IMG/VR virus record: IMGVR_UViG_3300029952_000031
Location: 1-54,343 of that record
Origin: a virus
Direction: 5' to 3' (one strand)
DNA: 54,343 nt
How positions within the stretch are numbered: the first letter of the stretch is position 1; each line of letters begins with the position of its first letter. A program made the translations under genes and the position numbers. The notes below the pieces were generated by a model. It searched no databases. It saw nothing but the letters and a program-made list of their open reading frames with translations, and was not told the origin of the DNA. Positions 4,112-48,165 of the stretch are shown here, piece after piece.

Positions 4112-4118
4112 GAGTTCC

Positions 4119-5345
4119 CTATCGAATGTGGATGACTTGTCCGAAGGGCACCTTAGCGCCTCGATTACTGATGACAACCCAAAGAATGGGGATTTCGAAG
4201 CCCAAAGGCTCCATCGGAGCACACTGCATATCTGAGAACACGATGGCCGCAGTGGGCCGGTGCTTCAAGATATACTCACGAACAGGCGTGAGATCTGTGC
4301 CGCCCCGACCTTTGATCATGACCTGATCGAAAGGATCCTCCTCGGTGTAGACCTGCTCACTTTGGATGATCGTGTCGAACTGAACGAGGGTCATTTTCTT
4401 GGGCTTGTAATGGTCCTTCACGTACTTAAATTCGCTGTTGAAACGCAGCGCATCCTTGTCCGAGATCGAACCAGACGTGTCCTCGAAATAGATCAGGTGA
4501 TCGAGAGCCCCTTCGTCCTCGTAGCGAGAGGGCAGATAGATGTCGGCAAACCTCCGGTTTGGCCTGCTCCAAGTGAAGCCGTTCTCTGCGAGCTCCTGCA
4601 TGAAGCGATGCAGGTACTGCTCCCAGGGCACGATTGGAGCCAGGAACTGTGTGAGCAGGGCTTCGATGTCACCTGGCATTTGCCCAGCTCCAGCGAGTTT
4701 GGCCTGCTGCTGAGCCATGATGGCGTTGTTCACGGCCTGGGCCATGTCCTCCTTCGACATGGGTCCGTTGGGGAACATATCGGTGCCGTCATCCGGGAAT
4801 TGGCTCTGGCCTTGTCCTTGAGGATCGGTCGTGGACGAGCCGGCTTGAGGATGGAACTGTCCCCAAGCGCCATGCTGAGGCGCTGTGCCGGCAGTGATGA
4901 GGGCATCGTAGATGTCCTCTTCCACCATGCCCCGATAGGTCTGGTCCTTCCAACACCATTTGAGCTCTTCGAATGAAAAGCCGTCGTCCTCGAGTTCGTT
5001 GTTGATCTTGATGTCGGTGGCGTAATTCCAGATCTTGGCGTTTCTCTCCCCCTGTCGGTGAAAGTGAAGCAGCGCAGGATGCTTGATTTCGTGAAAGAGC
5101 ACGGTGACTCTGGACTTCGGGGAAAGTTTGAGGAACCAATAAGGGTTCCACATGAGGTTCACGCCGTCTGTAGCGGCTGTCCGCATGTCTGGAGTCCAGA
5201 AGAAGTTCAGCGAGCACAGCAGCGGCCCATAGAAGGCCGCATACTTGTGGCTGAACAGCTGGCTCTTGGCTCGATCAAGCTCCCTTGTGAGGAAGTTCAC
5301 ATCGAGATCGCTGTAGTCAGTGACGACTTTGCCGGGATCATTCAT
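4119..5345 (-). CDS. Metallopeptidase-like and VWA domain protein (N4 gp25-type)
   Basis: A 408-residue protein with two recognisable parts. The N-terminal half has a metallopeptidase-like segment with HEIKH (residues 85-89), an HExxH zinc motif. Residues 160-225 are a Gln/Gly/Pro-rich linker. The C-terminal half is a VWA-like domain whose MIDAS motif DxSxS is intact (Asp289, Ser291, Ser293), followed by VFSDMQ near the end. It follows the MoxR-like ATPase gene with a 4-nt gap. MoxR ATPases act with VWA proteins as chaperone-like pairs. N4-like phages keep such a pair (gp24/gp25) as core genes of unknown role. Confidence 0.88.
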   Translation of the reverse strand: MNDPGKVVTDYSDLDVNFLTRELDRAKSQLFSHKYAAFYGPLLCSLNFFWTPDMRTAATDGVNLMWNPYWFLKLSPKSRVTVLFHEIKHPALLHFHRQGERNAKIWNYATDIKINNELEDDGFSFEELKWCWKDQTYRGMVEEDIYDALITAGTAPQHGAWGQFHPQAGSSTTDPQGQGQSQFPDDGTDMFPNGPMSKEDMAQAVNNAIMAQQQAKLAGAGQMPGDIEALLTQFLAPIVPWEQYLHRFMQELAENGFTWSRPNRRFADIYLPSRYEDEGALDHLIYFEDTSGSISDKDALRFNSEFKYVKDHYKPKKMTLVQFDTIIQSEQVYTEEDPFDQVMIKGRGGTDLTPVREYILKHRPTAAIVFSDMQCAPMEPLGFEIPILWVVISNRGAKVPFGQVIHIR

Positions 5346-5349
5346 GGTG

Positions 5350-6408
5350 TCAGTCGCTCAAATATCGCGTGAGTTGGATCATGGCCTTGGAGAAGGCCGG
5401 GTGTTGACGCAGTTCCGGGTGTCGAACCATCGTTGACCTGAAGAAGAGCACACGAAAGTCCATCGAGAACCGGTTGGCATAGTCCGACAGGCCGCCAAAG
5501 TTCTCCTCGGTGACCACTTCCATCATATGAGCGATGGTTGCCCAGCGAATGCCGTTCTCGGTGGGCATCCGGCAGGACTCAGGATCAGCGAGGATCTCTC
5601 GAACGTTGATAAGTTCCTTGTAGATCTTCGTGAAGTTCACGAATTCGACAGCGACTCCCGATGAGATCGTGCCGGCATACATTGCCGTCTTGGAGTCTTT
5701 GACTTCCTTGCCCGATATGAGCCTGTTCATGAACTCCCAGGTCCGAGGGCAGCAGAAGGTCTTGTCGTTGTGGTCAGGACGGAAGTCCATGAGCTTGGAG
5801 TTGTACTGGCTCAGGAACGCAATGATCCGAGGATCGTAGTTCTCCTTGAGAGCGACGTCTTCGAGCCACTCTCGGTAATTGACCTCCATCTCAAGCGTGA
5901 TCACTCGGGACTGCATGGCAGTGCCGGCGAGGTTCACGATGGCTCGGTCGGTGACGAGGTTGCCGGCCATGGACAGAACCACACGCTCATGGAGCTTGTG
6001 CTGGCCGATCATCTTGTCGAGCACGACCTTGTAGCTCGCAGCCTGGACTTGCTTCGGAGCAGCGTTGTGCTCGTCGAAGAAGATGCACCAGCCCTGCATG
6101 AGCCGGCCTTTGAGATCCCTGGGCATGGGTGTGCCTTCGAGCGGGAAGATCTCCCGGAACGGCGCATAACGGGCATAGCCGTCAGCCGTGTACTGGGGCA
6201 GCCCAGTGAAATCGGTGGACTCTGAGGTGGAAATTCGATGATCGATCATCATCAGATCCAGCTCATTGCAGACCTGGCGATGGATGGTGGACTTGCCCAT
6301 GCCTGGCGAAGAGATCACGTTGGGAACGAGGTCAGCTTCGAAGATGTCGATGATGTATTCTCGGACCTGCCGAGGTGTGCAACGGTAGATCTGGAGAGTT
6401 TCAGACAC
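5350..6408 (-). CDS. MoxR-like AAA+ ATPase (N4 gp24-type)
   Basis: A 352-residue AAA+ ATPase. Walker A is SPGMGKST (34-41), Walker B is CIFFDEHN with Asp111/Glu112, and a sensor-1-like Asn lies in SMAGN. The start is GTG at 6408 with AAGAAGAG upstream; a minus-strand terminator lies just before it. It would work with the VWA/metallopeptidase protein encoded immediately downstream, probably remodelling a protein complex in the infected cell. The partner's identity and substrate are not known. This pair is a conserved N4-like marker, separate from the RNAP operon here. Confidence 0.9.
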   Translation of the reverse strand: MSETLQIYRCTPRQVREYIIDIFEADLVPNVISSPGMGKSTIHRQVCNELDLMMIDHRISTSESTDFTGLPQYTADGYARYAPFREIFPLEGTPMPRDLKGRLMQGWCIFFDEHNAAPKQVQAASYKVVLDKMIGQHKLHERVVLSMAGNLVTDRAIVNLAGTAMQSRVITLEMEVNYREWLEDVALKENYDPRIIAFLSQYNSKLMDFRPDHNDKTFCCPRTWEFMNRLISGKEVKDSKTAMYAGTISSGVAVEFVNFTKIYKELINVREILADPESCRMPTENGIRWATIAHMMEVVTEENFGGLSDYANRFSMDFRVLFFRSTMVRHPELRQHPAFSKAMIQLTRYLSD

Positions 6409-6435
6409 TTGGCGCTCTTCTTCCTGGTTCAGAAA

Positions 6436-6469
6436 TGAAAAAAGCCCGCTGCTCTTTCGAGCAACGGGC
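6436..6469 (-). terminator. Rho-independent terminator (minus strand)
   Basis: Stem 6444-6454 pairs with 6459-6469 (11 bp, one C-A mismatch) around a TTTC loop. On the minus strand it is followed by six T. It lies 28 nt before the ATPase start, so it may end RNA entering from the long non-coding region. Confidence 0.8.
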
Positions 6470-7059
6470 CTGATCGGTCATATGAGTAGAGACCGCACTG
6501 ACTGTACTATCCAGTCCGTCACGGGGTTTAGCGTCACATCCGTCGGGGACATCTCTAGGTGATCGACAATCCTTCCGTAGATAGGTAGTCGATCAGCATC
6601 GAGATTCTTGAAAAGTAATGGGCCTGCCATCTTGTGCTGGCAGGCCCATCATTGGGCAGAGGGTTGCTTATGACGCTTTAACGAGTTTTCTCAGCAACAT
6701 CCCTTCAGGGGCGTTCATTCCCTGGTCCCAATTTTTACTGGCCGGTGTGGACACTTCGGGTTATCAGCCCTACCCGCCACTCCGTTTACGACAGTTTACA
6801 AGGCATCCAGATTGATGGTCTGACTTGACTTGCTATATGTCGTCCCCCGTCCCGCTGGGGTCTGCTCCTGCCAGTTTAAATTGATCTGTAGAGTTTACTT
6901 CCAGACTATCCACAGGCTGACTGCTGCACTTACGTGGGTAACACGGAGCCTTTTAGTTTCGCGTCCTGTTAGGGACGGCACATGCTCGGGTGCTGACTAA
7001 GGGTGAATCTGGCTCCCATCCGGTCCGCCAAATTCTCCAGTTGATCAGACTGTTTTCCC
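6470..7059. other. Long non-coding region between two minus-strand operons
   Basis: About 590 bp with no convincing ORF on either strand. It contains a perfect 11-bp hairpin at 6619-6648 (TGGGCCTGCCA stem), followed on the minus strand by ATTACTTTT, which could be a terminator. A word AGTTTA(C/A) recurs near 6793, 6876 and 6892. Short G/C-rich inverted repeats lie at about 6845-6860 and 6962-6976. It separates the large RNAP operon from the ATPase/VWA operon, so promoters for the latter should be here. I recognise no known RNA family. Confidence 0.5.
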
Positions 7060-7350
7060 CTAATTCTGTTGTGTTCGCAGATCCATTTTGATCCCGAGAG
7101 CCAGGCACAGAGCAGCCATCGGGAGATAGCTCCTCCAGTGCTCGCCCATCAGCTGGCCACGGATCTGACGCTTGTTCACCTGGAGCATACCAGCGAGTTG
7201 GTCCTCGGTGAGGCCCCGTTCGGCCATGGCCATCAGCAAGATGCCGCCTGTTCGCATGGCAAAGCGTTTGGCTTCGGCTTCGACCTGTTCAGGGGTGATC
7301 CCCGTGCTGCTGATCGTGGTGATTTCGAGCCGGTCTTCTTGGGTACTCAC
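7060..7350 (-). CDS. XRE-like helix-turn-helix regulator
   Basis: A 96-residue protein if started at GTG 7350, which has a perfect AAGGAG 8 nt upstream; the ATG eight codons earlier has no good ribosome site. The C-terminal half (AERGLTEDQLAGMLQVNKRQIRGQL, here split over two helices) is a helix-turn-helix of the XRE or antitoxin type, followed by MAALCLALGIKMDL. It is the last gene of the long operon and faces the 590-bp non-coding region. A regulator of early genes or of lysogeny is plausible by position, but the target is unknown. Confidence 0.72.
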   Translation of the reverse strand: MSTQEDRLEITTISSTGITPEQVEAEAKRFAMRTGGILLMAMAERGLTEDQLAGMLQVNKRQIRGQLMGEHWRSYLPMAALCLALGIKMDLRTQQN

Positions 7351-7409
7351 GAAAGGATCTCCTTGGGATTTCACCCTTCACCCAAGATACCCTTATTTCA
7401 AGAAAAAGA

Positions 7410-7610
7410 TCAGGTTTCCCGAACCAGTGGGGCAGGATAGATCACAGCCAGAGCCGAGAGACAGTAGTCCTCGTGCTCAGGGTCGATCATAATCGGCTCT
7501 GCGAGAGCTCGGTTCTTTTCGTCCTTGGTCAGCTTGCCGGCGTTGCCGTGGTGCTGAACGGAGATCTCAGGGCCTTTAAGCCCCTTTGACCAGACTACCC
7601 ACTTGGACAT
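7410..7610 (-). CDS. Hypothetical protein
   Basis: A 66-residue protein starting MSKWVVWSKGLKGPE; GAGG lies 9 nt before the ATG at 7610. It overlaps the preceding gene by 35 nt, so translation may be coupled. The middle is charged (KLTKDEKNRALAEP) and the end is hydrophobic. I recognise no family or motif. Confidence 0.65.
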   Translation of the reverse strand: MSKWVVWSKGLKGPEISVQHHGNAGKLTKDEKNRALAEPIMIDPEHEDYCLSALAVIYPAPLVRET

Positions 7611-7956
7611 TGAGAGATTCCTCGTAGTCGGCGACTGCCGCTTGTGGAGTTGCATAGGCGTTGTTGCCAAACAGGTAGACGACAGTCTGCGTGTTCGTGG
7701 GTTTGAGATGCTTCCAGACTCGAACGACACCGGTCGGCTTCCACTTGGAGAAGCCTTTGAAGGTGTAGAGCTGGTATTGCTGCTCGGACGACCCTTCGAA
7801 GTCGTCTCCGTACATCTGAATGCGCCACTCGTAGTGACGTTTGCCGCTGAGACGAACGAAGAAATCGTCCATCCAGCGACCTAGATCGGAGAACCGCGGA
7901 GGATGAACCTTCCACATGAAGAGCTTCCAGTGAAACCGATCGAGGAGAGCTCTCAC
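7576..7956 (-). CDS. Hypothetical protein, aromatic-rich
   Basis: A 126-residue protein starting at GTG 7956 with a GTGA overlap onto the upstream stop. It is rich in Trp, Tyr and Phe (FHWKLFMWKVHPP; YQLYTFKGFSKWKPTGVVRVWKHL), which suggests a compact beta or mixed fold. No catalytic motif or transmembrane segment is visible. Function unknown; it belongs to the RNAP operon. Confidence 0.7.
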   Translation of the reverse strand: MRALLDRFHWKLFMWKVHPPRFSDLGRWMDDFFVRLSGKRHYEWRIQMYGDDFEGSSEQQYQLYTFKGFSKWKPTGVVRVWKHLKPTNTQTVVYLFGNNAYATPQAAVADYEESLNVQVGSLVKGA

Positions 7957-8159
7957 TTCATTGGTTCCCGACCGGAGAAGTCATGGTTTTCGAGCTTCGC
8001 AGTCTGGATGGCGAGACGAGCTGTGCGGAGGGTCGAAAGACTCTGCCCAAACGTGCTTGGGTCAGTCCGTCGTTTCGGATCTGTGTGGGCTTCGAGCATC
8101 GCAACCGTGTCGATGAGCGAGTCATAGAGACGCTTTACTGTTGAGGGTGAGAGGTTCAT
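7953..8159 (-). CDS. Hypothetical small helical protein
   Basis: A 68-residue protein joined to both neighbours by 4-nt overlaps (ATGA at the start, GTGA at the end). It is predicted mostly alpha-helical (TVKRLYDSLIDTVAMLEAH; STLRTARLAIQTAKLE). There is no recognised family. Confidence 0.65.
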   Translation of the reverse strand: MNLSPSTVKRLYDSLIDTVAMLEAHTDPKRRTDPSTFGQSLSTLRTARLAIQTAKLENHDFSGREPMK

Positions 8160-8647
8160 TTCCAGATTGCTCGAACAGAGGTAGCCACGGCTCCGTAAGA
8201 GCCTGGGTGAAAGTTGTGCTTCGTGCAGCCGCCCTTGCAGGAGTAGCTGATGGGGAAAGCGCCAGCTTGCTGGGCCAGCCTGAAGACGCTGGCCCGAGCT
8301 GAGTTGATCGGAGCCGGCAGGATCACGACCTTGATCCGGGCTTTCACTGTCGCCAGGATCTTGCCCACACAGGGACCAGGAGCGTCATTGATGCCGGCGC
8401 TGATCACCACCCGGTCGAACTGAGTTCGAGGCATGTGAGCCAGGATCCAGCACGAACCCATGCTGGTCTTGGCGTAGGTCGAGACACGCAGAGCATGTCC
8501 CGTACCCACTGCAATCGAGTCGCCTATGGCTGCGTCCTGAGCCTTCGCCGGTGGCGTGAACCAGACAGTGAGACACACTCCGAGGAGTGCGACGATGGCC
8601 ATGGTCATGAACCAGGTAAGGTAGAGACGCATCGTGTGGGTGTTCAA
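8156..8647 (-). CDS. Secreted SGNH/GDSL-type hydrolase
   Basis: A 163-residue protein with an N-terminal signal peptide or anchor (hydrophobic 12-30, then a PPAKA-QD cleavage site near 36). The mature part has the SGNH blocks: IGDSIAVG with Ser44 as nucleophile, SAGINDAPG with Asn87, and NFHPGSYG with His147. The usual Asp of the DxxH block is His144 here, so the triad differs. The family removes acyl groups from lipids or polysaccharides. It starts at TTG 8647 overlapping the previous stop; an ATG five codons later is the alternative. An exported hydrolase made early could modify the cell surface, for example to block superinfection, but that is inference. Confidence 0.78.
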   Translation of the reverse strand: MNTHTMRLYLTWFMTMAIVALLGVCLTVWFTPPAKAQDAAIGDSIAVGTGHALRVSTYAKTSMGSCWILAHMPRTQFDRVVISAGINDAPGPCVGKILATVKARIKVVILPAPINSARASVFRLAQQAGAFPISYSCKGGCTKHNFHPGSYGAVATSVRAIWK

Positions 8648-8904
8648 ATCTCTGGCTCCATTGGTTGGTCCAGAATATCACCATCAATGTTGATGATAAC
8701 TGGCAGTCGTTGTGGGGTGTCGAATTCTTCCCCACAATTGTCGCAAGTATAATCTCCGAGAAAGTCGGAGATCACCCATGTACGTCGATAAGGATCGTAC
8801 CGTGTTGTTGCATCTCGACTGATGTCGGTGCAACTACACTTTGGGCAACATGGCCTTGTTCGCTTTTTCACTGGCGATGATCCGGAGAATGAACTGCTGT
8901 CCAT
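8644..8904 (-). CDS. Small zinc-ribbon protein
   Basis: An 86-residue protein with a treble or ribbon zinc site made of CPKC (residues 20-23) and CDNC (54-57). A short beta-rich stretch (RTWVISDFLGDYT) lies between them and an acidic tail follows. It overlaps the upstream gene by 71 nt, and no good ribosome site precedes the ATG at 8904. Translation coupled to the upstream gene is likely. A nucleic-acid or protein-binding role is typical of such ribbons but not shown. Confidence 0.7.
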   Translation of the reverse strand: MDSSSFSGSSPVKKRTRPCCPKCSCTDISRDATTRYDPYRRTWVISDFLGDYTCDNCGEEFDTPQRLPVIINIDGDILDQPMEPEI

Positions 8905-9073
8905 TGTCGAGGTGAAAGACGGGATTGTTGGCGTCGCTGACGTCGACGAAGTGGACCTTGCGAGCAGCCTGGTGCTCGACGTCTTTGATGAGGACGCTGA
9001 TCCACTGACCTTCGAGAAGATCTCGAATAGCCAGGCCGACGTCTCGGGTAGTGGCTCGAAAGCTCGTGCTCAC
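8834..9073 (-). CDS. Hypothetical protein
   Basis: A 79-residue protein starting at GTG 9073 in a GTGA overlap with the gene upstream. The sequence alternates beta-like segments (WISVLIKDVEHQAARKVHFV; PVFHLDNGQQFILRII). No motif is recognised. It is part of the continuous RNAP operon. Confidence 0.65.
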   Translation of the reverse strand: MSTSFRATTRDVGLAIRDLLEGQWISVLIKDVEHQAARKVHFVDVSDANNPVFHLDNGQQFILRIIASEKANKAMLPKV

Positions 9074-9651
9074 TTCGCCACACCCGTTTTGGGGATCTGG
9101 CTTTCCAGAGTGCTCAATCGAGCCATGAAGGACGACGAGAGCTTGGCGAACTGATCTGCGAATTCCAGCTTCAGAAGCTCGATGTCTTCCTTGAAGGCTG
9201 TGATCGCCGGATCTTCAGCGAGCTCGCCATACGCTTCCTTGCGGATCGCAGTGACGACCGAGACCGAGACATCCAGCTCTTTGGCGATCTTGGCGTCGGA
9301 CCAGCCAGAGTTGTAGACCCGCTTCTTCTCGTTGAAGTGATCATCGAGCGAAGCATAGATCTGTCGGGCAATCTTTGGATTGGGAGCGACTGAGGTTGAA
9401 GTCACTTTGCGTTCACCTTTCTGGCACTGGGCGCAGACTGGAGGGTATTTCAAAGAAATGTCCCAGCCTTCACGTTTGAAGGCCGGGACAAGATGTTCGG
9501 GAATGCAGTTGATCGGTCGACCGATAGTCTGAGACGCTCCACATTTACAGTGGATGTACCAGCCAGATCGACCTGAGTTTCTATAGGTGTAATACAGCCC
9601 GTAGGCTGCATTCATCTTGATGATGTCTTTAGGAGAGTGGGTGCCAGCCAT
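9070..9651 (-). CDS. DNA-binding protein with zinc site and HTH
   Basis: A 193-residue protein. The N-terminal part has a possible four-Cys zinc site (CKCG at 36-39 and CAQC at 73-76). Residues about 115-140 are a helix-turn-helix (SGWSDAKIAKELDVSVSVV). The C-terminal 45 residues form a probable coiled coil (EDIELLKLEFADQFAKLSS). This arrangement fits a sequence-specific DNA-binding oligomer. It lies just downstream of RNAP2; in N4 a separate protein helps the heterodimeric RNAP find middle promoters, so a transcription role is possible. GAGGTG precedes the ATG at 9651. Confidence 0.72.
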   Translation of the reverse strand: MAGTHSPKDIIKMNAAYGLYYTYRNSGRSGWYIHCKCGASQTIGRPINCIPEHLVPAFKREGWDISLKYPPVCAQCQKGERKVTSTSVAPNPKIARQIYASLDDHFNEKKRVYNSGWSDAKIAKELDVSVSVVTAIRKEAYGELAEDPAITAFKEDIELLKLEFADQFAKLSSSFMARLSTLESQIPKTGVAK

Positions 9652-9797
9652 TACTCACACCTCAGCTTTCCGCACTTCTTGCAGACGTAGCTGGGATAAT
9701 GACCGAACGGGATCTCTGCGTGAGAGCAAGTCGTTCGAACCCACCAGAGCGAGAGATCGTAATAGATCTCCCAGAGGCGCCTTCTAAGATAGCGCAT
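9651..9797 (-). CDS. Small zinc-binding protein
   Basis: A 48-residue ORF (MRYLRRRLWEIYYDLSLWW, ending KKCGKLRCE). GGAGAG lies 5 nt before the ATG at 9797. It overlaps the RNAP2 stop by 14 nt and its own stop overlaps the next start as TAATG. Cys24, His26, Cys39 and Cys42 could bind one zinc. The N-terminal helix is strongly basic and aromatic. The clean start and double overlap make it a likely real gene. Function unknown. Confidence 0.7.
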   Translation of the reverse strand: MRYLRRRLWEIYYDLSLWWVRTTCSHAEIPFGHYPSYVCKKCGKLRCE

Positions 9798-11007
9798 AGT
9801 TGCTCTCCAATATGTCCTGAGCCAGTGTGGGATCGAGCTTGCCCACCTGGACTTCGCGATTTACCAGTTGGCTCAACACGAAGCTCAAAAGATCGCTCTT
9901 TGCAATCAAATATAGCTGCATGTTGTACTGTTGCCGCAGATCGTCCCCGTAGTGAGGGAGACATCGGAAGCAATCGTGAATAGACATAACCTTGAAGGGA
10001 CGCTTCGGAAGGCTGTCGATCAGCTTGGAGATCTCGGCTCGGTCCACGAAAACGATGGTGTCGCTGTCGAGGTAGTCCAGGATTCTCGCCGAGAGATAGC
10101 CGCTCTTCTGGAAGAGCTTCCAGAGGATGCCCACCATGCGATGAGCCTCTTTGCTGAACTCTGGCGTGCCGAAGTGCGATTCCACTTCATCAGCCAGGAT
10201 CTCTTTGAGCAGCTCGATCCAGTTGGGATCGTAATCGCAGCGCCTGCTGATCTCCCGAACGATCATTCCGTCGATCGAGTGGATGGTGTTGGCGCCGAGA
10301 GATCTTCCCTCTTTGGTCGGAGCGTTGATCTTGCGGGTGATGTCGAACGGCTCGTTCAGGAAGTTCACGACTTCGCTGGCCTGAGCCATGACTTTGATGT
10401 GTACGTGGAAATTGTCGGGAAGCACCCAGTCATTGCTGAGGGCTTCGCCGTCCCAGATCTCGAGGAAGGTCTCGTTCAGTTCCCATGCAGCCGGCGCAAG
10501 CCGCTTCATGGTGTCGAGGAAAGTGACGAGCAGCTTGCCTTCGCCGAAGACTTCCTTGGGCACAGCGACAGACCCATAGAGAGCCGTCATAATCGCTCGC
10601 TTGGTGTCTTCGCGTTTGATCTTGGCGCTCTCACCGAGCTGCGAGATCATGTCCTCGTAGACGAGTGTGTAGGCGTCAGAGCGCTTGTCATTTCCCTGGT
10701 TCGGCTTCACCACATTGCACAGCTCAGCTGCGCTCCTGTCTCCGGTGAGAGCAGCCAGCAGCTGCAATCCAGAGCTGGTGGCATCGAGCGAGATCGCATA
10801 GCCGATGGGCTCTCCAGCCAGGACGCTCTCGTAGGCTTTGACGCCGGCGTAGAAGAGAGCAGGCTCTTCAGCCTGGTGGAGCATCTCGTGGAGATGGTCT
10901 TGGTGCTCTTCGAACCAGGCGAGACGCTCAGCCCAAGTGCGTTTGTCGAGCCCGAAGTTATTCGCAATGTCGATCTGTAGATATTGACGACCTGTGAACC
11001 TTTGCAT
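9784..11007 (-). CDS. T7-like RNA polymerase, catalytic subunit (N4 RNAP2/gp16-type)
   Basis: A 407-residue protein equal to the C-terminal, catalytic half of a single-subunit RNA polymerase; N4 gp16 is about the same size. Motif A is SLDATSSGLQ with Asp75. Motif B is KREDTKRAIMTALYG with Arg132, Lys136 and Tyr144 (the spacing found in T7 RNAP). Motif C is SIHDCF with His344/Asp345. It would act with the RNAP1-like subunit to transcribe middle genes. AAGGAG lies 6 nt before the ATG at 11007. RNAP1, the HNH-like gene and RNAP2 are in the same orientation, with a small plus-strand gene between. Confidence 0.95.
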   Translation of the reverse strand: MQRFTGRQYLQIDIANNFGLDKRTWAERLAWFEEHQDHLHEMLHQAEEPALFYAGVKAYESVLAGEPIGYAISLDATSSGLQLLAALTGDRSAAELCNVVKPNQGNDKRSDAYTLVYEDMISQLGESAKIKREDTKRAIMTALYGSVAVPKEVFGEGKLLVTFLDTMKRLAPAAWELNETFLEIWDGEALSNDWVLPDNFHVHIKVMAQASEVVNFLNEPFDITRKINAPTKEGRSLGANTIHSIDGMIVREISRRCDYDPNWIELLKEILADEVESHFGTPEFSKEAHRMVGILWKLFQKSGYLSARILDYLDSDTIVFVDRAEISKLIDSLPKRPFKVMSIHDCFRCLPHYGDDLRQQYNMQLYLIAKSDLLSFVLSQLVNREVQVGKLDPTLAQDILESNYALS

Positions 11008-20584: not shown

Positions 20585-21282
20585 TGCTCACGCGCGAGAT
20601 GATCGAAAAAGCGCTCCCCACTAATTTGAGGAGTGCCGCTACCCAGGCTTTCACGGACCAGGTGAACAACCTGTCGGCAGATCCCTTGGTGGCTGAGAGC
20701 ATCCGCGAGAATTTCATCTCGTATTCGAGGGTGCTCCAAGAGGGGAAATTTAAGACGGAAGACTACCTGCACGCGGTCGCCTACGTGAGCTTCAAGCACA
20801 TGGGCTACTCGAACCAGGATGCCTATTTCCGGACTTTCCCCCAGCGCCACGCCAATCTCTTGGCCAAGGGCACTTCGGGCAAAGACATTGCGGCTTACGT
20901 CTCAGCGTTCCACCGGGGCAAGCTCGTGAACCTTGTCATGGAGCAGAGCCTCGTTCCGATCTGGATCCTGAACCAGGACGTCTACCAGAAGGCGATCAAC
21001 ACCCAGGTCGAGATCATGGAGGACGACACCCTCCCGGCTGTGGCTCGAACGGCTGCTGCGAATTCGGTGCTCACCCATTTGGCGAAGCCAAAAGAGATGG
21101 CGAACACCATCAATTTCACGGTCGCTGAGAGTTCGGGAATGTCCGAGATGCGGCAGCTCCTCACCGATCTGGCCCGAAATCAGCGGGCAGCCATCGAAGG
21201 GGGAACTTCTCCTCGGGAGATCGCCAGTCAGAAGCTGATCGATGTCACCCCGAATCCTAGTCCCTCACTGGTTCCAAAATAA
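20584..21282 (+). CDS. Terminase small subunit-like protein
   Basis: A 232-residue protein starting at 20584 (TGATG overlap), directly upstream of the large terminase. It is mostly helical; the segment YLHAVAYVSFKHMGYSNQDAYFRTFP (given here in part: VSFKHMGYSNQDAYF) resembles the helix-turn-helix of small terminases. A helical middle (KAINTQVEIMEDD) could oligomerise. In N4-like phages the equivalent gene next to gp68 is gp69-type. It would recognise packaging sites. Assignment rests mainly on position and helix pattern. Confidence 0.7.
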   Translation: MLTREMIEKALPTNLRSAATQAFTDQVNNLSADPLVAESIRENFISYSRVLQEGKFKTEDYLHAVAYVSFKHMGYSNQDAYFRTFPQRHANLLAKGTSGKDIAAYVSAFHRGKLVNLVMEQSLVPIWILNQDVYQKAINTQVEIMEDDTLPAVARTAAANSVLTHLAKPKEMANTINFTVAESSGMSEMRQLLTDLARNQRAAIEGGTSPREIASQKLIDVTPNPSPSLVPK

Positions 21283-22871
21283 TGGAACTCCTCAAGCAAG
21301 AACTCGATATTTGGCTCGATGGCGTCAATTATCAGGCTCTGAATTCGTCGGACTATGTGCCGTCTGAGTTCGCCCTCACCTTCATGAATTTCATCAAGCT
21401 CGTGAACGGCGCCGAAGGCGAAAGCCACAAGACTCCCCCTGTTCATTTGAAGATGCTCGACAAGCTCGTCGAGCCCAGCCCCTATGTGGCGAACCTCTGT
21501 TTCCGTGGAGCAGCGAAAACGACGCTGTTCATGGAGTATTTCGTTCTCTTCCTGGCTTTCTATGGTTACCTGCCGAACTTCGGGAAGATCGAGGGGATGA
21601 TCTACGTCTCCGACTCGATGGAGAACGGCGTCAAGAGCGCTCGAAAGAACATCGAGTTTCGCTACGAATCCAGCCCTTTCCTGCAATACTGGATCCCTGA
21701 AGCCCACTTCACGGACAACTACCTCGAGTTTCGAGCCAAAGAGGGCAATCGACTCGGCGTAAAGATGTTCGGCGCCAAGACAGGCCTCCGCGGAACGAAG
21801 ATTTTCGGGAAGCGGCCTCCTCTTGCCGTGCTCGATGACCTTGTGAGTGACGACGACTCCAAGTCCAGGGTCCAGATGGAGGCCATCAAGGACACTGTCT
21901 ATAAGGGAGTGAACCACGCTCTTGATCCGACCCGCCGCAAAGTCATCTTCAACGGCACTCCCTTCACCAAAGACGACATTCTCATTGAAGCCGTCGAGTC
22001 TGGCGCATGGGATGTGAATGTCTGGCCGGTCTGTGAACGTTTTCCCTGCACTGAGGAGGAGTTCTCCGGGGCTTGGGAGGACCGTTTCACGTTCCAGTAC
22101 GTCAAAGATCAATATGACATGGCGGTCAAGACGGGGAAGCTCGCTGGATTCTACCAGGAACTGATGCTGAGGATCACCTCAGACGAAGAGAGGCTCGTTC
22201 AAGACGACGAGATCAAGTGGTACAACCGATCGAAGCTCCTTGAGATGAAGGGGAACTTCAACTTCTACATCACCACGGACTTCTCGACCTCGAAAAAACA
22301 GACTGCGGACTTCTCTGTCATCGCTGTGTGGGCCTACAACTCCAACGGACAATGGTTCTGGGTGGATGGAGTCTGTGCTCGGCAGACAATCGACATCACC
22401 TTCAATGACCTGTTCCGGCTTGTGAGCGAATATCACCCGCAACAGGTGGGCATCGAGGTCACTGGCCAGCAGCAGGCCTACATTAAGCTCCTCCAACAAG
22501 AGATGATGAACCGGAACATCTGGTTTTCGTTCGCTTCGAGTGAAAAATCAGGTGAAGCAGGCATTCGACCGGTCGTGGATAAGCTCTCCAGGTTCAATAT
22601 GGTCGTTCCTTGGTTCAAATCATCTCGCATGTGGTGGCCCGAGGAGATGAAACTCACCGTGATCATGGGTCATTTCTTGCAGCAGATTAAATTGGCGACT
22701 AAGAATGGCCTGAAGGGCAAAGATGATTGCCTAGATACGATCTCGATGCTTGGGTATCTGACGCCGTGGAAACCATCCGAAGGAACTGCTTCTTCAAGTT
22801 CTTCTGAGGGACCTTACGACGAAGACACACCGGAAGCGGACACCAATCGCTTATCCTCTTACGTTGTGTGA
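21282..22871 (+). CDS. terL: Terminase large subunit (N4 gp68-type)
   Basis: A 529-residue packaging motor. The ATPase part has FRGAAKTTL (74-82) as Walker A and LAVLDDLVSDD (181-191) as Walker B. The nuclease part has YITTDFSTSKKQTADFS with Asp331 as the first metal ligand, then GIEVTGQQQ and DDCLDTIS. The RGAAKT variant of Walker A is typical of N4-like and related podoviral terminases. The ATG at 21282 overlaps the small subunit stop as TAATG. It cuts and pumps DNA into the prohead through the portal at 36651. Confidence 0.95.
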   Translation: MELLKQELDIWLDGVNYQALNSSDYVPSEFALTFMNFIKLVNGAEGESHKTPPVHLKMLDKLVEPSPYVANLCFRGAAKTTLFMEYFVLFLAFYGYLPNFGKIEGMIYVSDSMENGVKSARKNIEFRYESSPFLQYWIPEAHFTDNYLEFRAKEGNRLGVKMFGAKTGLRGTKIFGKRPPLAVLDDLVSDDDSKSRVQMEAIKDTVYKGVNHALDPTRRKVIFNGTPFTKDDILIEAVESGAWDVNVWPVCERFPCTEEEFSGAWEDRFTFQYVKDQYDMAVKTGKLAGFYQELMLRITSDEERLVQDDEIKWYNRSKLLEMKGNFNFYITTDFSTSKKQTADFSVIAVWAYNSNGQWFWVDGVCARQTIDITFNDLFRLVSEYHPQQVGIEVTGQQQAYIKLLQQEMMNRNIWFSFASSEKSGEAGIRPVVDKLSRFNMVVPWFKSSRMWWPEEMKLTVIMGHFLQQIKLATKNGLKGKDDCLDTISMLGYLTPWKPSEGTASSSSSEGPYDEDTPEADTNRLSSYVV

Positions 22872-23824: not shown

Positions 23825-24178
23825 GTGGGAATCCTCGCCTTCGTTCCGTTTGCGACGTTCCTTCAGCTCAATCCGCTGAAGAACCACTCCAGTCGCGTGA
23901 TCATCCCGAACTTGATTTTCGGGTTGAGCGTCGCTGATGCGTTTTTGCAGACGATAAGCGGGACGAGCCTGGATATTTCAGTGTCCGATGGGACGCTTGA
24001 GACCATTTCGAGTGCAACACTCGAGCTGAGCGGCACCACGCTGACTTTCACCTCGCTTGCAGTCGGTAGCACCTTCGACATGACCTTCACGGTGACCAAT
24101 TCCGGCACCGTGGATCTCATCCTTTCTTCACTTACAGCCACTGGTGACTTCTCGGTCACTTACATCGCGAGGGACTGA
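23825..24178 (+). CDS. Beta-sandwich virion-associated protein
   Basis: A 117-residue protein from GTG 23825. Residues 50-115 form an Ig-like/ASH-type beta sandwich (LAVGSTFDMTFTVTNSGTVD). The pattern with a G-S...TVTNSGT core is frequent in extracellular enzymes and phage appendages. An Ig-like domain also lies in the GH5 protein downstream, suggesting a shared appendage. No enzymatic site. Confidence 0.68.
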   Translation: MGILAFVPFATFLQLNPLKNHSSRVIIPNLIFGLSVADAFLQTISGTSLDISVSDGTLETISSATLELSGTTLTFTSLAVGSTFDMTFTVTNSGTVDLILSSLTATGDFSVTYIARD

Positions 24179-24181
24179 ACG

Positions 24182-24598
24182 ATGGCTAATGCAGTTTACC
24201 CGAGTTTTCGAACCAAGCTCCTCTCGCCGGGCATCAACCTTGCGACGGTGACCATCAAGGCGATCGGCGTCACGGTGACGTCGGGTTCGACGAACTATAC
24301 TTACAATGCTGCTCATGCGAACCTGTCGGACATCGCTTCGGGCTCCATCTTCGTTCCGGCTGTCGCTCTCAGTTCGCTGGCGGTCGCTTCCCAGGCGCTC
24401 ACTGCGGCTTCTGTCGTGTTCCCCTCGGTGGCCATTTCTGGTTCCCTCAAGGTCGATGCGATCATCCTCTACATCGACACGGGCACGCCCAGCACCTCGA
24501 CGCTGATCGGTTACATCGACACGGCGACGGGTCTTCCGGCCACTCCCACCGGGCAGAACATCACGCTCAACTGGTCCGGCGCCGTTCTGACGGATTGA
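24182..24598 (+). CDS. Phage structural protein
   Basis: A 138-residue protein starting MANAVYPSFRTKLL. It resembles common phage structural proteins that begin MANAVYP, carry the YTYNAAHANLSDI stretch and end with a jelly-roll-like strand set (ILYIDTGTPSTSTLIGYID). It lies between the ASH-like protein and the GH5 enzyme. It is probably an adaptor or fibre component. Confidence 0.76.
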   Translation: MANAVYPSFRTKLLSPGINLATVTIKAIGVTVTSGSTNYTYNAAHANLSDIASGSIFVPAVALSSLAVASQALTAASVVFPSVAISGSLKVDAIILYIDTGTPSTSTLIGYIDTATGLPATPTGQNITLNWSGAVLTD

Positions 24599-24608: not shown

Positions 24609-26912
24609 ATGACCGCACCCTCTGTCGTCAGTGAGGCTTATTTTCCCTGGACGGGCGCTTATCCGCTCGCTTCATCGAATTCCTATGACTCGACTGGCAC
24701 AGATGGCCTGATCGTTTTCTTCTTCTCGGCTACGGGTACTTCGTTCGTCCCGGTCGCCACTTATGGTGGCGTGACTGGCACGCTTATTGGCCAAAATACG
24801 GTTCCGGCTCAGACTTCGGCCGGGACGCTCTGGGCTTGGTCGTTCCGCGGATATACGCCAGGTGCGGGCACCCTCCTGATCTCGTCGTCGACGAACTATG
24901 CTGACTCGGGTTGTTGCTATGTCGTCGGGCTCACCGGCACGCAAAGCTCGATGCTGGGCAATTCCAGCATTGTGGTCTCCGGAACTCCCTCGGGAAGCGC
25001 CTCGATCACGGCCGCTGGAGCCAACAGCACCTTCATTGGACTGGCGGCGAGCTGTCAGGCTCCTGGCGTCACTGGTTCGGGCTCGCCCGCTCCCACGCTG
25101 CTCGAATCCAACACCACAGCCACAAACAACCTGGGCAATGTCTACTCGCAGGCGAGTGTAAGTTCTGGCGCAACGGTTTCGATCTCGTCGAGCGCCGCTT
25201 ACAACTACACAGCGGCTGCTGTTGTCGAGGTTTTGGGCGCTTCGAGCGGTCCAAGCATCACTTCTGGCCCCCTTTCGCTCTCGACGAGCTTGGGTGCGGC
25301 AACTGTGCGTGTGCCCCCTGTTGTCACGGCTGCCCCCCTCTCGCTGAGTGTTTCCCTTGGTTCGGAAACTCTCGTCGTCACGCCCATTCCTCCGAGCATT
25401 TTGGCTGGGCCTCTCGCTCTGACGATCAGCGAAGGTGGCATCGTCGTCACTTTCCCGAATTCGATCACGGCTCCGCCGCTGGTTTTGTCTTTGGGGCTGG
25501 GCGCTGCAAGCGTCGGCTCCCCGGTCTCGATCACGGCTGGTCCCTTGCCGCTGACGATCGCTCTGGGCAGCGAAACTGTCGGGATTGCAGCCACTCTGAC
25601 GACGCCGATCACCATTCCGGCAGGTGGCAGCGTCACGGTCACGGTTCGCTTCACGCCTACGGTTGCAGGATCTCGCACCGGGGCTCTGTCGATCGTCTCG
25701 AATGCGGCTTCCAGCCCGAATACTGTGGCCCTCACAGGCACAGCTGTGGCGAGTGGATCGGCTCCCCTGTCCAGGCTTTCGATCTCCGGAAACCAGTTCG
25801 TCGACTCCAGCGGCAACAAAGTGCGCCTGAAGAGCGTCAATTGGTTCGGTGGCGAGAGCACGAATTACATTCCTCATGGGAACTGGATCCGTCGCTACAC
25901 CGACATGCTCTCCCAGATGAAGACGATGGGCTTCAACTGCATTCGCTTGGCGTTCTCAGGAGACACTTGCTCTCCCGGTCGGACTCCTCCGGGCACGGCT
26001 TTCGACGCCACGCTGAACCCCGAATTTGTCGGGCAAACCTCGCTTCAGATCTACGATCTGATCATCGCTTGGTGTCAAGCGAACTCGATGTACGTCGTGC
26101 TCGATCATCACCGTTGCTCGGCAGGCGCTGGAACTGACACAGGCATCGTTGCTCCCTATTCCACGACGCAATGGCAGGCAGACTGGGTGCTCTTGGCCAC
26201 TCGATACGCTGCGAACACCTGCGTTGTCGGCGCCGACGTGCATAACGAGCCCTACGTCTACACCTGGCTCGAATGGAAAGCCCTTGTCGAGCCTCTGGGC
26301 AACGCAATCCTCGCTGCTGCTCCTGCCTGGCTCATCTTCGTGGAGGGCGTTGGCGCCTTCACGGGCACGTCCAATGGTGTCACCTACGACAACGACAATA
26401 CCTGGTGGGGTGGCCAGCTCATGGATGTCGCCAACAATCCGATCACGCTCTCAGTGCCGCACAAAGTCGTCTATTCGCCCCATGAGTATGGTCAGAGCGT
26501 CGGTTCGCAGGCTTGGTTGTCGACCGATAGCTCGCCTGTCACTGGTTACCCGGCCGGGATCTACACTGAGATCCACAAGCACTGGGGCTACATCTACGAG
26601 CAGGGCATTGCCCCGATCTGGGTGGGCGAAATGGGCGGCAAATTCGGGCTTGACGGCTCTGGAGGCGCAACTCAGCCGAATGGCGATGTTGAGACGGTCT
26701 GGATGAGCACCGTGATCAAGGTTCTCAACGGTGACTTCGCCGGAACGGGAACCAGTCAGGACACAGCGGGCAACAAGGGCATGTCGGCTTGCTATTGGGC
26801 CTATCCGCCCATCTCCGGTGACACTGGTGGTCTCGTTCAAGACGACTGGACCACGCCTCAGGCACCGAAACTCGCCGTTTTGGCGCCCTTTCTCACGTTC
26901 ACGGGGACCTAA
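24609..26912 (+). CDS. Virion-associated GH5 endoglucanase-like protein with Ig-like and repeat region
   Basis: A 767-residue protein. Residues 1-215 are a beta-rich attachment domain. Residues 217-330 hold five tandem repeats of about 23 residues (AGPLPLTIALGSETV and variants), followed by an Ig-like stretch (IPAGGSVTVTVRFTP). Residues 390-765 are a glycoside hydrolase family 5 domain. It has DVHNEPY with Glu547 as acid/base, IWVGEMGG with Glu674 as nucleophile, LDHH and SPHEYG. GH5 enzymes of this type cut beta-1,4-glucans such as cellulose. It lies in the appendage block (N4 gp64-67 region), so it is probably on the virion. GAGG lies 8 nt before the ATG. Confidence 0.88.
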   Translation: MTAPSVVSEAYFPWTGAYPLASSNSYDSTGTDGLIVFFFSATGTSFVPVATYGGVTGTLIGQNTVPAQTSAGTLWAWSFRGYTPGAGTLLISSSTNYADSGCCYVVGLTGTQSSMLGNSSIVVSGTPSGSASITAAGANSTFIGLAASCQAPGVTGSGSPAPTLLESNTTATNNLGNVYSQASVSSGATVSISSSAAYNYTAAAVVEVLGASSGPSITSGPLSLSTSLGAATVRVPPVVTAAPLSLSVSLGSETLVVTPIPPSILAGPLALTISEGGIVVTFPNSITAPPLVLSLGLGAASVGSPVSITAGPLPLTIALGSETVGIAATLTTPITIPAGGSVTVTVRFTPTVAGSRTGALSIVSNAASSPNTVALTGTAVASGSAPLSRLSISGNQFVDSSGNKVRLKSVNWFGGESTNYIPHGNWIRRYTDMLSQMKTMGFNCIRLAFSGDTCSPGRTPPGTAFDATLNPEFVGQTSLQIYDLIIAWCQANSMYVVLDHHRCSAGAGTDTGIVAPYSTTQWQADWVLLATRYAANTCVVGADVHNEPYVYTWLEWKALVEPLGNAILAAAPAWLIFVEGVGAFTGTSNGVTYDNDNTWWGGQLMDVANNPITLSVPHKVVYSPHEYGQSVGSQAWLSTDSSPVTGYPAGIYTEIHKHWGYIYEQGIAPIWVGEMGGKFGLDGSGGATQPNGDVETVWMSTVIKVLNGDFAGTGTSQDTAGNKGMSACYWAYPPISGDTGGLVQDDWTTPQAPKLAVLAPFLTFTGT

Positions 26913-27256
26913 TGGCACAAGAGGCCGTTTTCGTTGTCACTCTCTCGCCGGCTTCGTCGTCTCCACAGACGGTGAACTTCACTACTCGCGACGGAACAGC
27001 CTCCGCGGCGAACGGTGACTACACAGCTGTGAGCGGAACTCTGACTTTCGCACCCGGAGTGACCACTCAGCAGGTCATTGTCCCGGTTCGTCTTCCTCTT
27101 CCGACCGGACATGCTTCGGAATTGTTCTACGTCGACGTGAGTTGGCCGACTGGATCGGGAAATACGACTACTCGTGGCACCGGGATCGGCACACTTCCAG
27201 GGGCTGGGCTCACTGTCTTGCCGGTCGTCTCCATCAACAATGTTTCGGTGTCCTGA
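26912..27256 (+). CDS. Calx-beta domain protein, upstream part of a split GH48 gene
   Basis: A 114-residue protein with one Calx-beta domain (FVVTLSPASSSPQ; TTRDGTASAANGDYTA; GTLTFAPGVTTQ). It ends VVSINNVSVS, the first strand of a second Calx-beta domain that continues after the TGA in the next ORF. The stop (27254-27256) and the next ATG (27260) are in the same frame, one codon apart. Calx-beta domains are modular spacers and calcium-binding folds in secreted enzymes. Its start overlaps the GH5 stop as TAATG with GGGGA 5 nt upstream. Confidence 0.78.
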   Translation: MAQEAVFVVTLSPASSSPQTVNFTTRDGTASAANGDYTAVSGTLTFAPGVTTQQVIVPVRLPLPTGHASELFYVDVSWPTGSGNTTTRGTGIGTLPGAGLTVLPVVSINNVSVS

Positions 27257-27259: not shown

Positions 27260-29722
27260 ATGACCATTTCCACGACTCGTAAGATCTCGTTCCTCGTCAC
27301 GCTCAATGAGGCCAGCGCTCAGACTGCGACGGTCGATTACACGACTGTCTCTGGCACTGCGATTGCCGGCACTGACTTCGGAGCTGTCTCGGGGACGCTG
27401 ACTTTCGCACCTGGCGTCACTTCGCAGGGGATCGACGTCTATCTGGGCACGGCTTCCACAGGTGGCCTGGTGTTCCAAGTGGCGCTCTCGAACCCGGTGA
27501 ATTGCACCCTTGGTTCGGGCGGAGGCCAAGGCACGATCGGGATCTCGGTCGTTCCTCCCTATTTGTCGCGTTTCAACTATATGTACGCGGCCATCAAAAA
27601 CACTGCGAATGGGTATTTTGGTCCCCCGACAGGGCCGAAAGCCTTCCAGATGCCTTATCATTGCCCGGAAAAGCTCATCGCCGAGGCTCCCGACTATGGC
27701 CACGAGAGCGTCTCCGAGACGATCTCTTTCTGGGTCGGACTTGAGACTTGGCAGGGTGTGCTGAACAGCGACTGGACTGGCTACACGGCTTGCTGGAATT
27801 CGATCACCTCGAACTACATCCCGAGTGCTACGAACCAGCCGATCAGCGCCTATTTGCCTGCGGCGCCGGCGACGTATCAGCCCGAAGAGGATTTGCCGAG
27901 TCTCTATCCGGTGACCAGCGTTGTAAGTGCCCCGGTCGGCACTGATGGGCTCTATGCCGAACTTCTGGCTACCTACGGCACCCCCACGATCTTCCTCATG
28001 CACTGGCTGATCGATGTCGATGGAGCCTTTGGCTTCTACAATGGCGACACATCGACGCTCGGCACCTACATCAACAACTTCCAGCGTGGAATGATGGAGA
28101 GCACGTTCCTCACCATTACCTTCCCCTGCTGGGACGATTGGCACTTTGGCGGCCCCTACGGCTATTTGCCCCTCTATGGGACGGGAACCGAGCTCTATCC
28201 GAGCGCTCCCTTCGCTTACGGCAAGCAGTGGCGCTACACCTGTGCGCCTGATGCCGAGGGCCGGGCTCTCCAGTGGGCGTTCCGAGCCACGGACATGACT
28301 GCGAGTGCTCCTCCCGCAGCTGTGACCGCTGTTGAGACAACTGCTCGGAAGATGGGCGACTATCTCCGCTACGCCACGATGGACAAGTATTTCCGGCAGA
28401 TCGGCAACAATCAGGTCGGTTCGACGGTCAGCGCTCCCAAAACGGCCTGTCACTACCTCATCTCTTGGTACATGAGCTGGGGCGGCGAGATCCCTGCAAC
28501 GGGTGTTCCGGCATCCTGGTCCTTCCGTATTGGTTCCAGCGAATGCCATTTCGGTTATCAGGCGCCCAATGCGGCCTACCAGATGGCCACGGGTGGCGGA
28601 GGTCACACGCCTTTGTCGCCGACAGCTGCTGGAGACTGGCTGCTCTCGCTCACTCGTCAGCTGGAGATGATCCGTTGGCTTCAGACTGAACAGGGCTTTA
28701 TCGCCGGTGGTGTCTCGAATTCGGTCGATGGCCGCTATTTGACGCCTCTGACGGGGCTTTCTGCCCCCAATGAGGTCAATTATCCCCGAGACGGTCGTGA
28801 AGTGGCGACTTTCTATGGGATGACTTACACTTACAGCCCGGTCTGGCATAACCCGCCCTCGAACAACTGGTTCGGCTACCAGGTGTGGGGTATCGGTCGT
28901 GTCGCTGAGCTCTTCCACACGACTGCGGGCAAGACGAGCACCCTTGCTCTCTCGATCCAGACCAATCTTCAAGTTATCCTGGATCGCTGGGTCAATTGCG
29001 TGCTCGCAAATTGCACGGTCGCCTCGGATGGCAGCTCGTTCTCGCTTCCGAGCAACCTCTCGTGGGTGAGCAGCACCCAAGTTGTCGGCGAGACGACCAC
29101 TGTCGCCAATCTCGAAGGCGACTTCGAGTACCTGCCTAGCCTGAATTGGCCCGGTACGTCCCCGAATTATGCGACTTTCTGGAGCGCTGGATCGGTCCCG
29201 AACCCGAATTTGCAGTTCACGATCACCTCGACGGGTGAGGATCTTGGTGTTGCTGGTTCGCTGGCGTCTACACTTCTTCTGTACGCCCAAGCGAAACGCA
29301 ATCTGGGTCTCTTCACGACGCCGATCCCCGGCACACCCAATGGCAAGACGCCAAACGATTGTTATCTGCTGGCCAAAGCGCTCTTGGACTGCATCTGGAC
29401 CAATTACAAAGCCTCTATGGGCGTCGAGGTCTCGGAGCCCCGAGCTGACTACGTGCAGTACGGCAATCCGATCTACATCCCATCGATCTTCACGGGCACG
29501 ACGGGCACTGGAGATCCGATCAACGCCGAGTCCACCTTCGTCTCGGTGCGTTCGTTCATGGAAAGCGATCCTGGCTACGCACAGATCGCTGCCTACCATG
29601 CCAATCCGACGACTGCCCCGGTTCCGGTGTTCACTTATCATCGGTTCTGGGCTCAGACGGAATACGCCATGGGTTGCGCCGTCATGCACAAGTATTTCTC
29701 TGACTTAGCCGAGGCTGCATAG
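27260..29722 (+). CDS. GH48 cellobiohydrolase-like protein with Calx-beta N-terminus
   Basis: An 820-residue protein. Residues 1-95 are a Calx-beta domain lacking its first strand (GTLTFAPGVTSQ present). Residues 105-815 match family 48 glycoside hydrolases along their length: EAPDYGHESVSE, then WSIT-like WNSITSNYIP, PATYQPE, HWLIDVDGAFGF, FQRGMMESTF, CWDDWHFGG, APDAEGRA, KMGDYLRYATMDKYFR, CHYLISWYMSWGG and GRVAELF. Glu142 and Glu153 keep the 11-residue spacing of the catalytic pair (Glu44/Glu55 in clostridial CelF). GH48 enzymes release cellobiose from cellulose chain ends. No signal peptide is seen, as expected for a virion protein. The ATG has no ribosome site upstream. Confidence 0.93.
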   Translation: MTISTTRKISFLVTLNEASAQTATVDYTTVSGTAIAGTDFGAVSGTLTFAPGVTSQGIDVYLGTASTGGLVFQVALSNPVNCTLGSGGGQGTIGISVVPPYLSRFNYMYAAIKNTANGYFGPPTGPKAFQMPYHCPEKLIAEAPDYGHESVSETISFWVGLETWQGVLNSDWTGYTACWNSITSNYIPSATNQPISAYLPAAPATYQPEEDLPSLYPVTSVVSAPVGTDGLYAELLATYGTPTIFLMHWLIDVDGAFGFYNGDTSTLGTYINNFQRGMMESTFLTITFPCWDDWHFGGPYGYLPLYGTGTELYPSAPFAYGKQWRYTCAPDAEGRALQWAFRATDMTASAPPAAVTAVETTARKMGDYLRYATMDKYFRQIGNNQVGSTVSAPKTACHYLISWYMSWGGEIPATGVPASWSFRIGSSECHFGYQAPNAAYQMATGGGGHTPLSPTAAGDWLLSLTRQLEMIRWLQTEQGFIAGGVSNSVDGRYLTPLTGLSAPNEVNYPRDGREVATFYGMTYTYSPVWHNPPSNNWFGYQVWGIGRVAELFHTTAGKTSTLALSIQTNLQVILDRWVNCVLANCTVASDGSSFSLPSNLSWVSSTQVVGETTTVANLEGDFEYLPSLNWPGTSPNYATFWSAGSVPNPNLQFTITSTGEDLGVAGSLASTLLLYAQAKRNLGLFTTPIPGTPNGKTPNDCYLLAKALLDCIWTNYKASMGVEVSEPRADYVQYGNPIYIPSIFTGTTGTGDPINAESTFVSVRSFMESDPGYAQIAAYHANPTTAPVPVFTYHRFWAQTEYAMGCAVMHKYFSDLAEAA

Positions 29723-29730
29723 AACTATAT

Positions 29731-29757
29731 AGGAGGAAAGCCTTGTGTTTTCCTCCT
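29731..29757 (+). terminator. Hairpin after GH48, weak terminator or processing site
   Basis: AGGAGGAAA (29731-29739) pairs with TTTCCTCCT (29749-29757), followed by ACTTACGTTTGCTTT. The T-run is broken. A related AGGAGGAAGC hairpin lies at 33649. A TTGACG at 29787 and TATAAA at 29807 lie downstream but only 14 bp apart. Confidence 0.55.
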
Positions 29758-29828
29758 ACTTACGTTTGCTTTACTTAAATCACTACTTGACGTGAAAGAA
29801 ATCAGCTATAAACCCCGATTAACGGGGG

Positions 29829-36650: not shown

Positions 36651-38912
36651 ATGGATACCGGTGATGCAAACCAGGATACCCAGTTCCAGCTTGCTGAGGA
36701 CGTGGACACCAAGCTCACGAAATGGATAAACGAGCCGACTGTCGAGATCCTGAAGCGTGATCTGGAGTCGACTCGTAGTGCTCACGACGAGCACGTTGCC
36801 AAAGTCGACACTTGGACGGGTCTCTTGCATGGTCGGCATCATGGGGAGAAGCGTAATGGCCCCTATGAAGGCGAGAGTGAAGGTCGCCGAGAGAAAGCCC
36901 CCAAGGGGCGCTCCAAAGTCCAGCCGAAGCTCATTCGACGTCAAGCCGAGTGGCGCTATGCTGCGCTGAGTGAGCCTTTCCTTGGTTCGAACAAGCTCTT
37001 CAAGGTGGATCCTTGCACCTATGAAGACGCTGCTGCGGCCACTCAGAACGAACTCGTGCTGAATTGGCAGTTCCGAACCAAACTCAATCGCGTCAAGTTC
37101 GTTGATGACTACGTTCGATCGACGGTCGATGAGGGTACGTGCATCGTTCGAGTGGGCTGGAGGCGGCAGACTGTCCATATAAAGAAGACTGTGCCGGTCT
37201 GGGATCACTATGAAATCGACAATGAGCAAGATGCTCAGACCCTGAAGCAGGCTCTTGACCTCAAGCAGGAGAATCCGAGGGCCTACGAAGATCAGGTCCA
37301 TCCGGCTGTGAAAGCCGCTGTCGATCTTCACGAGGAGACCGGGACAGCCACCAAGGCCGTGCAGAATGGGACTGAGGAAGTCCCCCACGAAAAAGTCCTT
37401 CAGAACTTTCCGACTGTCGAAGTCCTCGATCCGCGGAACGTTTTCATCGATCCCTCGTGCAATGGAGACATCTCCAAGGCGCTCTTCTGCGTGATCACGT
37501 TCGAGACCTCGAAGTCTGAGCTTCTCAAAGAACCCAAGAAATACAAGAACCTCGACAAGGTGAACTGGTCGTCCAACGCCCCGGTCAGCGAGCCCAATCA
37601 CAGGACCCAGACCCCCAGTGAGTCGATGATGCTCGACACGATGCGCCGCAAGGTCGTCGCCTATGAGTATTGGGGCCTCTACGACATGAACAAAGACGGC
37701 GTTCTTGTGCCGTTTGTCGCTACCTGGATCGGATCCACTCTGGTCCGGATGGAGCCCAATCCCTATCCGGATGAGGGTCTCCCGATCGTTTTGGTCCCCT
37801 ATATGCCGGTGAAGCGTCACCTCTACGGTGAACCTGATGCGGCCCTGCTCGAGGACAATCAGGCGATCCTGGGTGCTGTGATGCGAGGCATGATCGACTT
37901 GCTCGGTCGCTCCGCCAATGGCCAGCAGGGCATTGCCAAGGGAATGCTCGATCCTCTGAACCGTCGTCGCTACGAGAACGGGCAGGACTACGAGTTCAAC
38001 CCGAATATGTCGCCGGCGAACGGCATTATCGAGCACAAGTACCCGGAATTGCCGCAGTCGGCTCTGTCCATGACGGCCATGGTGAACCAGGAAGCGGAAG
38101 CCCTCACAGGTGTGAAGAGCTTCTCCGGTGGCATCTCTGGTTCGGCCTACGGCTCTGTCGCCGCCAATGCCAAGTCTGCACTCGATGCAGCTGCTCTCCG
38201 TGAGATGGCGATTCTTCGTCGTTTGGCGAAGGGCATGGTCGACATTGGCACCAAGATCATTGGCATGAATGCCGTGTTCTTGTCCGACAAAGAGACGGTC
38301 ATGGTCACGAACGAGAAGTTCGTCGAGATCAGCCGTGAAGACCTCAAGGGCAACTTCGATCTCGATGTGGACATTTCCACGGCTGAAGTCGACGACGCCA
38401 AAGGCCAGGATCTGAGCTTCATGCTCCAGACTTGTGGCCCTGCGGCTGGCCCTGAGATCACGATGATGATCCTGGCCGAGATCGCCGAACTGAAGCGTAT
38501 GCCCGTCTTGGCTCAAAAGCTCCGCAACTTCAAACCGAGCCCTCCGCCTCCGCCTTCCCCGGAACAGCAGCAGATCACGCAACTCCAATTGCAGGCTGCC
38601 CAGCTCGCGGTTCAGAAACTTCAGGCCGAGATCGAACTGATCCAGTCCAAGGCAGGCATGGAAGACGCTCGCAAGGACAAGACCAATCTCGATTACGTCG
38701 AGCAAGAAACGGGCACGGCCCATGCTCGCGATATGGAGCTTCAGCAGGCTAATGCCCTAAGTCAGCAGCAGTTGGCTTCCACAAATGCAGAAGGTCAGCG
38801 GCATTTGGCGGTGACGAAGGCGCTCACTACTCCAACAAAGGAAGGAGAGAGCAAGCCTGATATTCATGCCGCCGTAGGTTATAATCATCTCGCGAAGACT
38901 ACTACGCTGTAA
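36651..38912 (+). CDS. Portal protein (N4 gp59-type)
   Basis: A 753-residue protein in the place and size of N4 gp59 (the 94-kDa portal). Segments [49 protein letters not shown] and [25 protein letters not shown] (each quoted in short here) match podoviral portals with a long helical C-terminal barrel region ([19 protein letters not shown]). It forms the DNA channel and binds terminase. The gene is followed by an inverted repeat at 38921-38960. Confidence 0.9.
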
Positions 38913-48106: not shown

Positions 48107-48165
48107 ATTCGTTGAAGTCAGCCTATAGGGTCTTCGCAATTGTACCCTCCGGGTTGGACTTACTC

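Follow-up and report, generated by a model that had tools for sequence, protein, structure and literature searches.

The closest described system is that of Erwinia phage vB_EamP-S6 (S6; Schitoviridae, Waedenswilvirus), for which cellulose is described as the first receptor (PMC9544554) and which is again listed as cellulose-dependent elsewhere (PMC13101476). The S6 locus is ordered TerL, gp097, gp096, the GH5 gene gp095, the GH48 gene gp094, lysis genes, and portal. In the review of Romling 2022 (PMC9544554), gp094 is drawn as a Calx-beta domain followed by GH48, with E155 and D331 as predicted catalytic residues; gp095 is reported to degrade carboxymethylcellulose, a soluble cellulose, and to be the only member of the pair individually verified; and the N-terminal domains are suggested to fix the enzymes to the particle. 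Cellulase activity of S6 virions has been reported, citing Knecht 2022 (PMC13220884). A GH5 gene also adjoins a GH48 gene with a Calx-beta N-terminus in Erwinia phage Hena1 (gp203/gp204; Vequintavirinae), a myovirus in which the GH5 bears a baseplate-protein annotation. Altogether, 17 GenBank phage records encode a GH48, all of them from Erwinia phages, aligning over 99% of the query at 49-52% identity. The statement in the initial annotation that no phage GH48 is known was thus wrong: a virus-borne pair of GH5 and Calx-beta-GH48 is already published for S6, and the locus described here adds a diverged case.

The window, that is, the whole stretch of DNA that was analysed, is a 54,343-bp IMG/VR virus contig with an incomplete 3' end, where an ORF starting at 48112 runs off the sequence. 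Profile and sequence matches identified a terminase large subunit of the N4/Schitoviridae type (21282..22871, + strand) and a portal protein of the SU10/N4 type (phrog_1216; 36651..38912, +), which are up to 76.5% and up to 61% identical, respectively, to those of phages among which are named Schitoviridae. Terminase, portal, and major head protein were all recognised as N4-type (phrog_38, 1216, 2120, and 1357), as were further structural proteins, and the gene order is TerL, a virion protein, GH5, and GH48, followed by the fibre-like proteins, endolysin with holin, and the portal, so that the GH5-GH48 pair lies between terminase and portal in the polymorphic region of Schitoviridae. Judged by these gene sequences, the window is a diverged, uncultivated Schitoviridae (N4-like) phage, and the earlier placement of the GH48 gene next to the structural genes of a tailed phage was borne out by domain matches and the N4-type neighbours. 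N4-like phages encode a giant virion RNA polymerase, and the ORF running off the contig (48112-54342, at least 2,077 aa) is situated where that gene is expected.

The GH48 gene (27260..29722, +) is an open frame of 820 aa that was assigned by profile, alignment, and model as encoding a predicted Calx-beta-GH48 processive cellulase, with Calx-beta at approximately residues 8-95 and GH48 at approximately residues 100-815. The initial annotation had proposed the GH48 assignment, and had named Glu142 and Glu153 as the catalytic pair; the assignment and the residues held. In the Pfam search, PF02011 matched with an E-value of 5.9e-188 and 626.7 bits (cut-off 25), and the match was full-length, the profile being covered in two stretches (1-463 and 443-619); a Calx-beta Pfam match was located at residues 11-62. 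Apart from weak Calx-beta matches, the nearest solved structures were all GH48 enzymes. Alignment placed E142, E153, and D331 of the window protein opposite E44, E55, and D230 of Cel48F, in which the identity of E44 and E55 is fixed by the PDB mutants E44Q (1g9j) and E55Q (1f9d), and the equivalents of these three residues were invariant in all 32 sequences of a GH48 alignment that included cellular members. An AlphaFold model built on this alignment (pLDDT 87.0, pTM 0.85) superseded an earlier one built on eight phage sequences (pLDDT 54.5). Compared using Foldseek, the model was an (alpha/alpha)6 barrel matching Cel48F (1g9j) with a TM-score of 0.92, normalised to the target, and its N-terminus resembled the Calx-beta domains of Na/Ca exchangers. 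The predicted fold and the catalytic residues are as in Cel48F (1f9o), CelS (1l1y), and C. bescii CelA (4l0g). Membership of the window protein in GH48 is thus confirmed by profile, catalytic residues, and predicted fold. A structure search of BFVD returned Calx-beta partners only and no GH48 match, and that database appears to contain no good model of a phage GH48.

Three features of the locus had been overlooked in the initial annotation: the GH5 gene, the N-terminal Calx-beta domain of the GH48 protein, and a standalone Calx-beta ORF. The GH5 endoglucanase (24609..26912, +; domain match at residues 399-701) has a weak Ig-like/ASH match between its unassigned N-terminal region and the GH5 domain, and its catalytic glutamates, E547 and E674, are invariant among the phage GH5 sequences. 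The standalone Calx-beta protein (26912..27256, +; 114 aa, Pfam match) is encoded between GH5 and GH48. Immediately ahead of the cassette are a 117-aa ORF (23825..24178, +) with a weak Ig-like/anchor match and weak similarity in contigs L013 and L007, and a phrog_644 protein identified by PHROG match (24182..24598, +), a homologue of which (50%) immediately precedes GH5 and GH48 in L007. As in S6, GH5 is followed by Calx-beta-GH48 between terminase and portal, and the two GH48 proteins are 54% identical; unlike S6, the window carries the standalone Calx-beta ORF between the two enzymes, and the N-terminus of its GH5 differs from that of gp095. Hena1 shares the standalone Calx-beta protein (gp202, 117 aa), which is placed after GH48 rather than before it.

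The gene probably encodes a GH48 cellulase that is carried on the virion of this uncultivated Schitoviridae phage and works together with the adjoining GH5, as in S6. The earlier suggestion that the enzyme is used to cross a cellulose matrix is in keeping with what has been published for S6. We infer activity, virion location, docking through Calx-beta, and a cellulose-making host for the window phage. Under this model, GH5 and GH48 on the particle would bind cellulose that the host has exported around itself, GH5 would make internal cuts in the cellulose chains, and GH48 would travel along the ends so made, freeing cellobiose, which would allow the particle to pass through the cellulose layer to a second receptor. 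Cellular GH48 enzymes carry a signal peptide, CBM, or dockerin; Calx-beta would stand in for these and, together with the standalone Calx-beta protein, would most likely anchor the enzyme to the particle.

Release of a free cellulase, made late and set loose at lysis to loosen the host biofilm so that progeny can spread, was considered unlikely. Fibre-like and then lysis genes do follow GH48 in the same direction, and the S6 review describes particle location as still to be demonstrated (PMC9544554); against this, cellulase activity has been reported for S6 virions (PMC13220884), in both Hena1 and contig L006 the pair lies next to genes for baseplate, tail fibre, or tail sheath, and the N-terminal part of the L006 GH5 protein weakly matches a tail fibre. 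We regard it as very improbable that the gene is instead an auxiliary metabolic gene supplying an infected cellulose-degrading host with sugar from environmental (plant) cellulose. Cellulolytic bacteria have GH48 as their key cellulase, and GH5 and GH48 are also adjacent in a cellular Acidobacteriaceae genome (L038), but the window GH48 lies in a structural gene block and has no apparent signal peptide, the ORF beginning at the Calx-beta domain, nor a CBM or adjoining transporter; Calx-beta occupies the place where the cellular L038 protein has CBM2, and the Erwinia precedent involves cellulose made by the host (PMC9544554). The L038 locus (3987-10010) encodes adjacent GH5-CBM2 and CBM2-Ig-GH48 proteins, the GH48 protein being close to the phage one in identity but having CBM2 and Ig domains and, unlike that of the window, no Calx-beta; it is possibly a cellular parallel to, or the source of, the phage pair.

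Further GH48 contigs were present in the viral collection, and in every phage case inspected GH5 was located just upstream of GH48, either directly or with intervening proteins; these were Calx-beta proteins, except for a 199-aa protein of L006 that matched no family. The pair was found in L006, a contig that is P2-like and encodes a tail sheath and Tail_P2_I; in L007, whose capsid is 59% identical to that of Rhizobium phage RHph_TM; in L009 (IMGVR_UViG_2929245759_000004) and L012, which are Bcep22/DC1-like podophage contigs; and in L013, a low-GC Schitoviridae contig. In these five contigs and in Hena1 it lies among tail or structural genes, and at least five phage backgrounds carry it: N4-like, Vequintavirinae, P2-like, Bcep22-like, and Rhizobium RHph_TM-like. 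In L013 GH5 is fused to GH18 in one protein (5192-7984) beside GH48, giving a three-enzyme set, and in L006 a tail protein with CBM4_9 is encoded near the GH5 protein and GH48 (560-1804 and 5524-7263). Among GenBank phage records, 477 matched the window portal whereas only 17 encoded GH48, some of these being Hena1-like myoviruses, and GH48 is thus an accessory gene.

In the GH48 tree, with the window included, a branch supported at 100/100 divided nine phage sequences from 21 cellular ones; the cellular sample was mostly from Actinobacteria, as were the best matches. Cellular GH48 proteins are about 35-46% identical and stand apart from the phage clade, whose members have Calx-beta. Among the 80 loci listed from the genome collection, GH48 proteins were cellular only (up to 41% identity), although prophage copies may lie beyond that list; among 199 Acidobacteriota genomes GH48 was present in one, the other 25 matching genomes having only the Calx-beta part; and among the plasmid matches listed, GH48 proteins were of the cellular kind and at most 39% identical. 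GH48 is a mostly cellular family, and a host fragment misjoined to a phage contig, or a recently acquired host gene, was therefore weighed, but this explanation was assigned a negligible probability and is ruled out by the distinct phage GH48 clade and the synteny with S6. A second IMG/VR contig (3300028909_000051) is also identical to the window over 22.8 kb across the region, although it possibly comes from the same sample and is hence not independent.

Within the phage clade, the window GH48 was grouped with that of L009 (support 100/99), and the GH5 tree also joined these two (92/90). L009 is the closest to the window by both GH48 (64%) and GH5 (63%); in GH48, the window lies nearer to this Bcep22-like phage than to S6. 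L009 likewise has a small Calx-beta ORF (112 aa) immediately ahead of GH48, but its phage backbone is unrelated, and an extra 618-aa protein, Calx-beta plus collagen-like, separates its GH5 from the small ORF. Constraining the four Schitoviridae GH48 sequences to one clade, in an AU test run after the first tree had been seen, was rejected (p-AU about 1e-89). Because the window and L009 group together despite unrelated backbones, and because the AU test rejects a common clade for the Schitoviridae sequences, the GH5-GH48 pair appears to be transferred jointly between phages.

A Calx-beta-like module is present at the start of all phage GH48 proteins examined, and large proteins near the pair in L009 and L012 also begin with Calx-beta. 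From this recurrence, and from the standalone Calx-beta proteins that adjoin the pair in L009, Hena1, and the window and suggest a common docking part, we infer that Calx-beta is the part of the phage enzymes that docks to the particle or acts as a spacer. In Serratia phage Parlo (L119, 4341-9203), a GH5-containing tail protein is followed by a gene annotated as sialidase/CalX-like, and the Calx-beta partner may accordingly bear other enzymes. We lean slightly towards the wider reading that GH5 and Calx-beta-GH48 form a mobile, phage-specific cellulose-entry cassette that is swapped among unrelated tailed phages of the five backgrounds named above, is docked via the Calx-beta common to the standalone protein, and by its presence predicts phages with host cellulose as first receptor. 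The new part is the spread of the cassette rather than the existence of a phage GH48: the S6 strategy of using cellulose as a receptor would be found also in a diverged N4-like phage known only from uncultivated material, and the two cellulases would be seen to travel together among very different phages. If the pair marks cellulose-dependent infection, it would provide a sequence marker for such phages together with a set of particle-bound cellulases.

Scans for promoters and terminators gave site numbers no higher than in shuffled sequence. A 12-pair hairpin (TAGGAGGAAAGCC...TTTTCCTCCTA) is located at 29730-29758, directly 3' of the GH48 stop codon.
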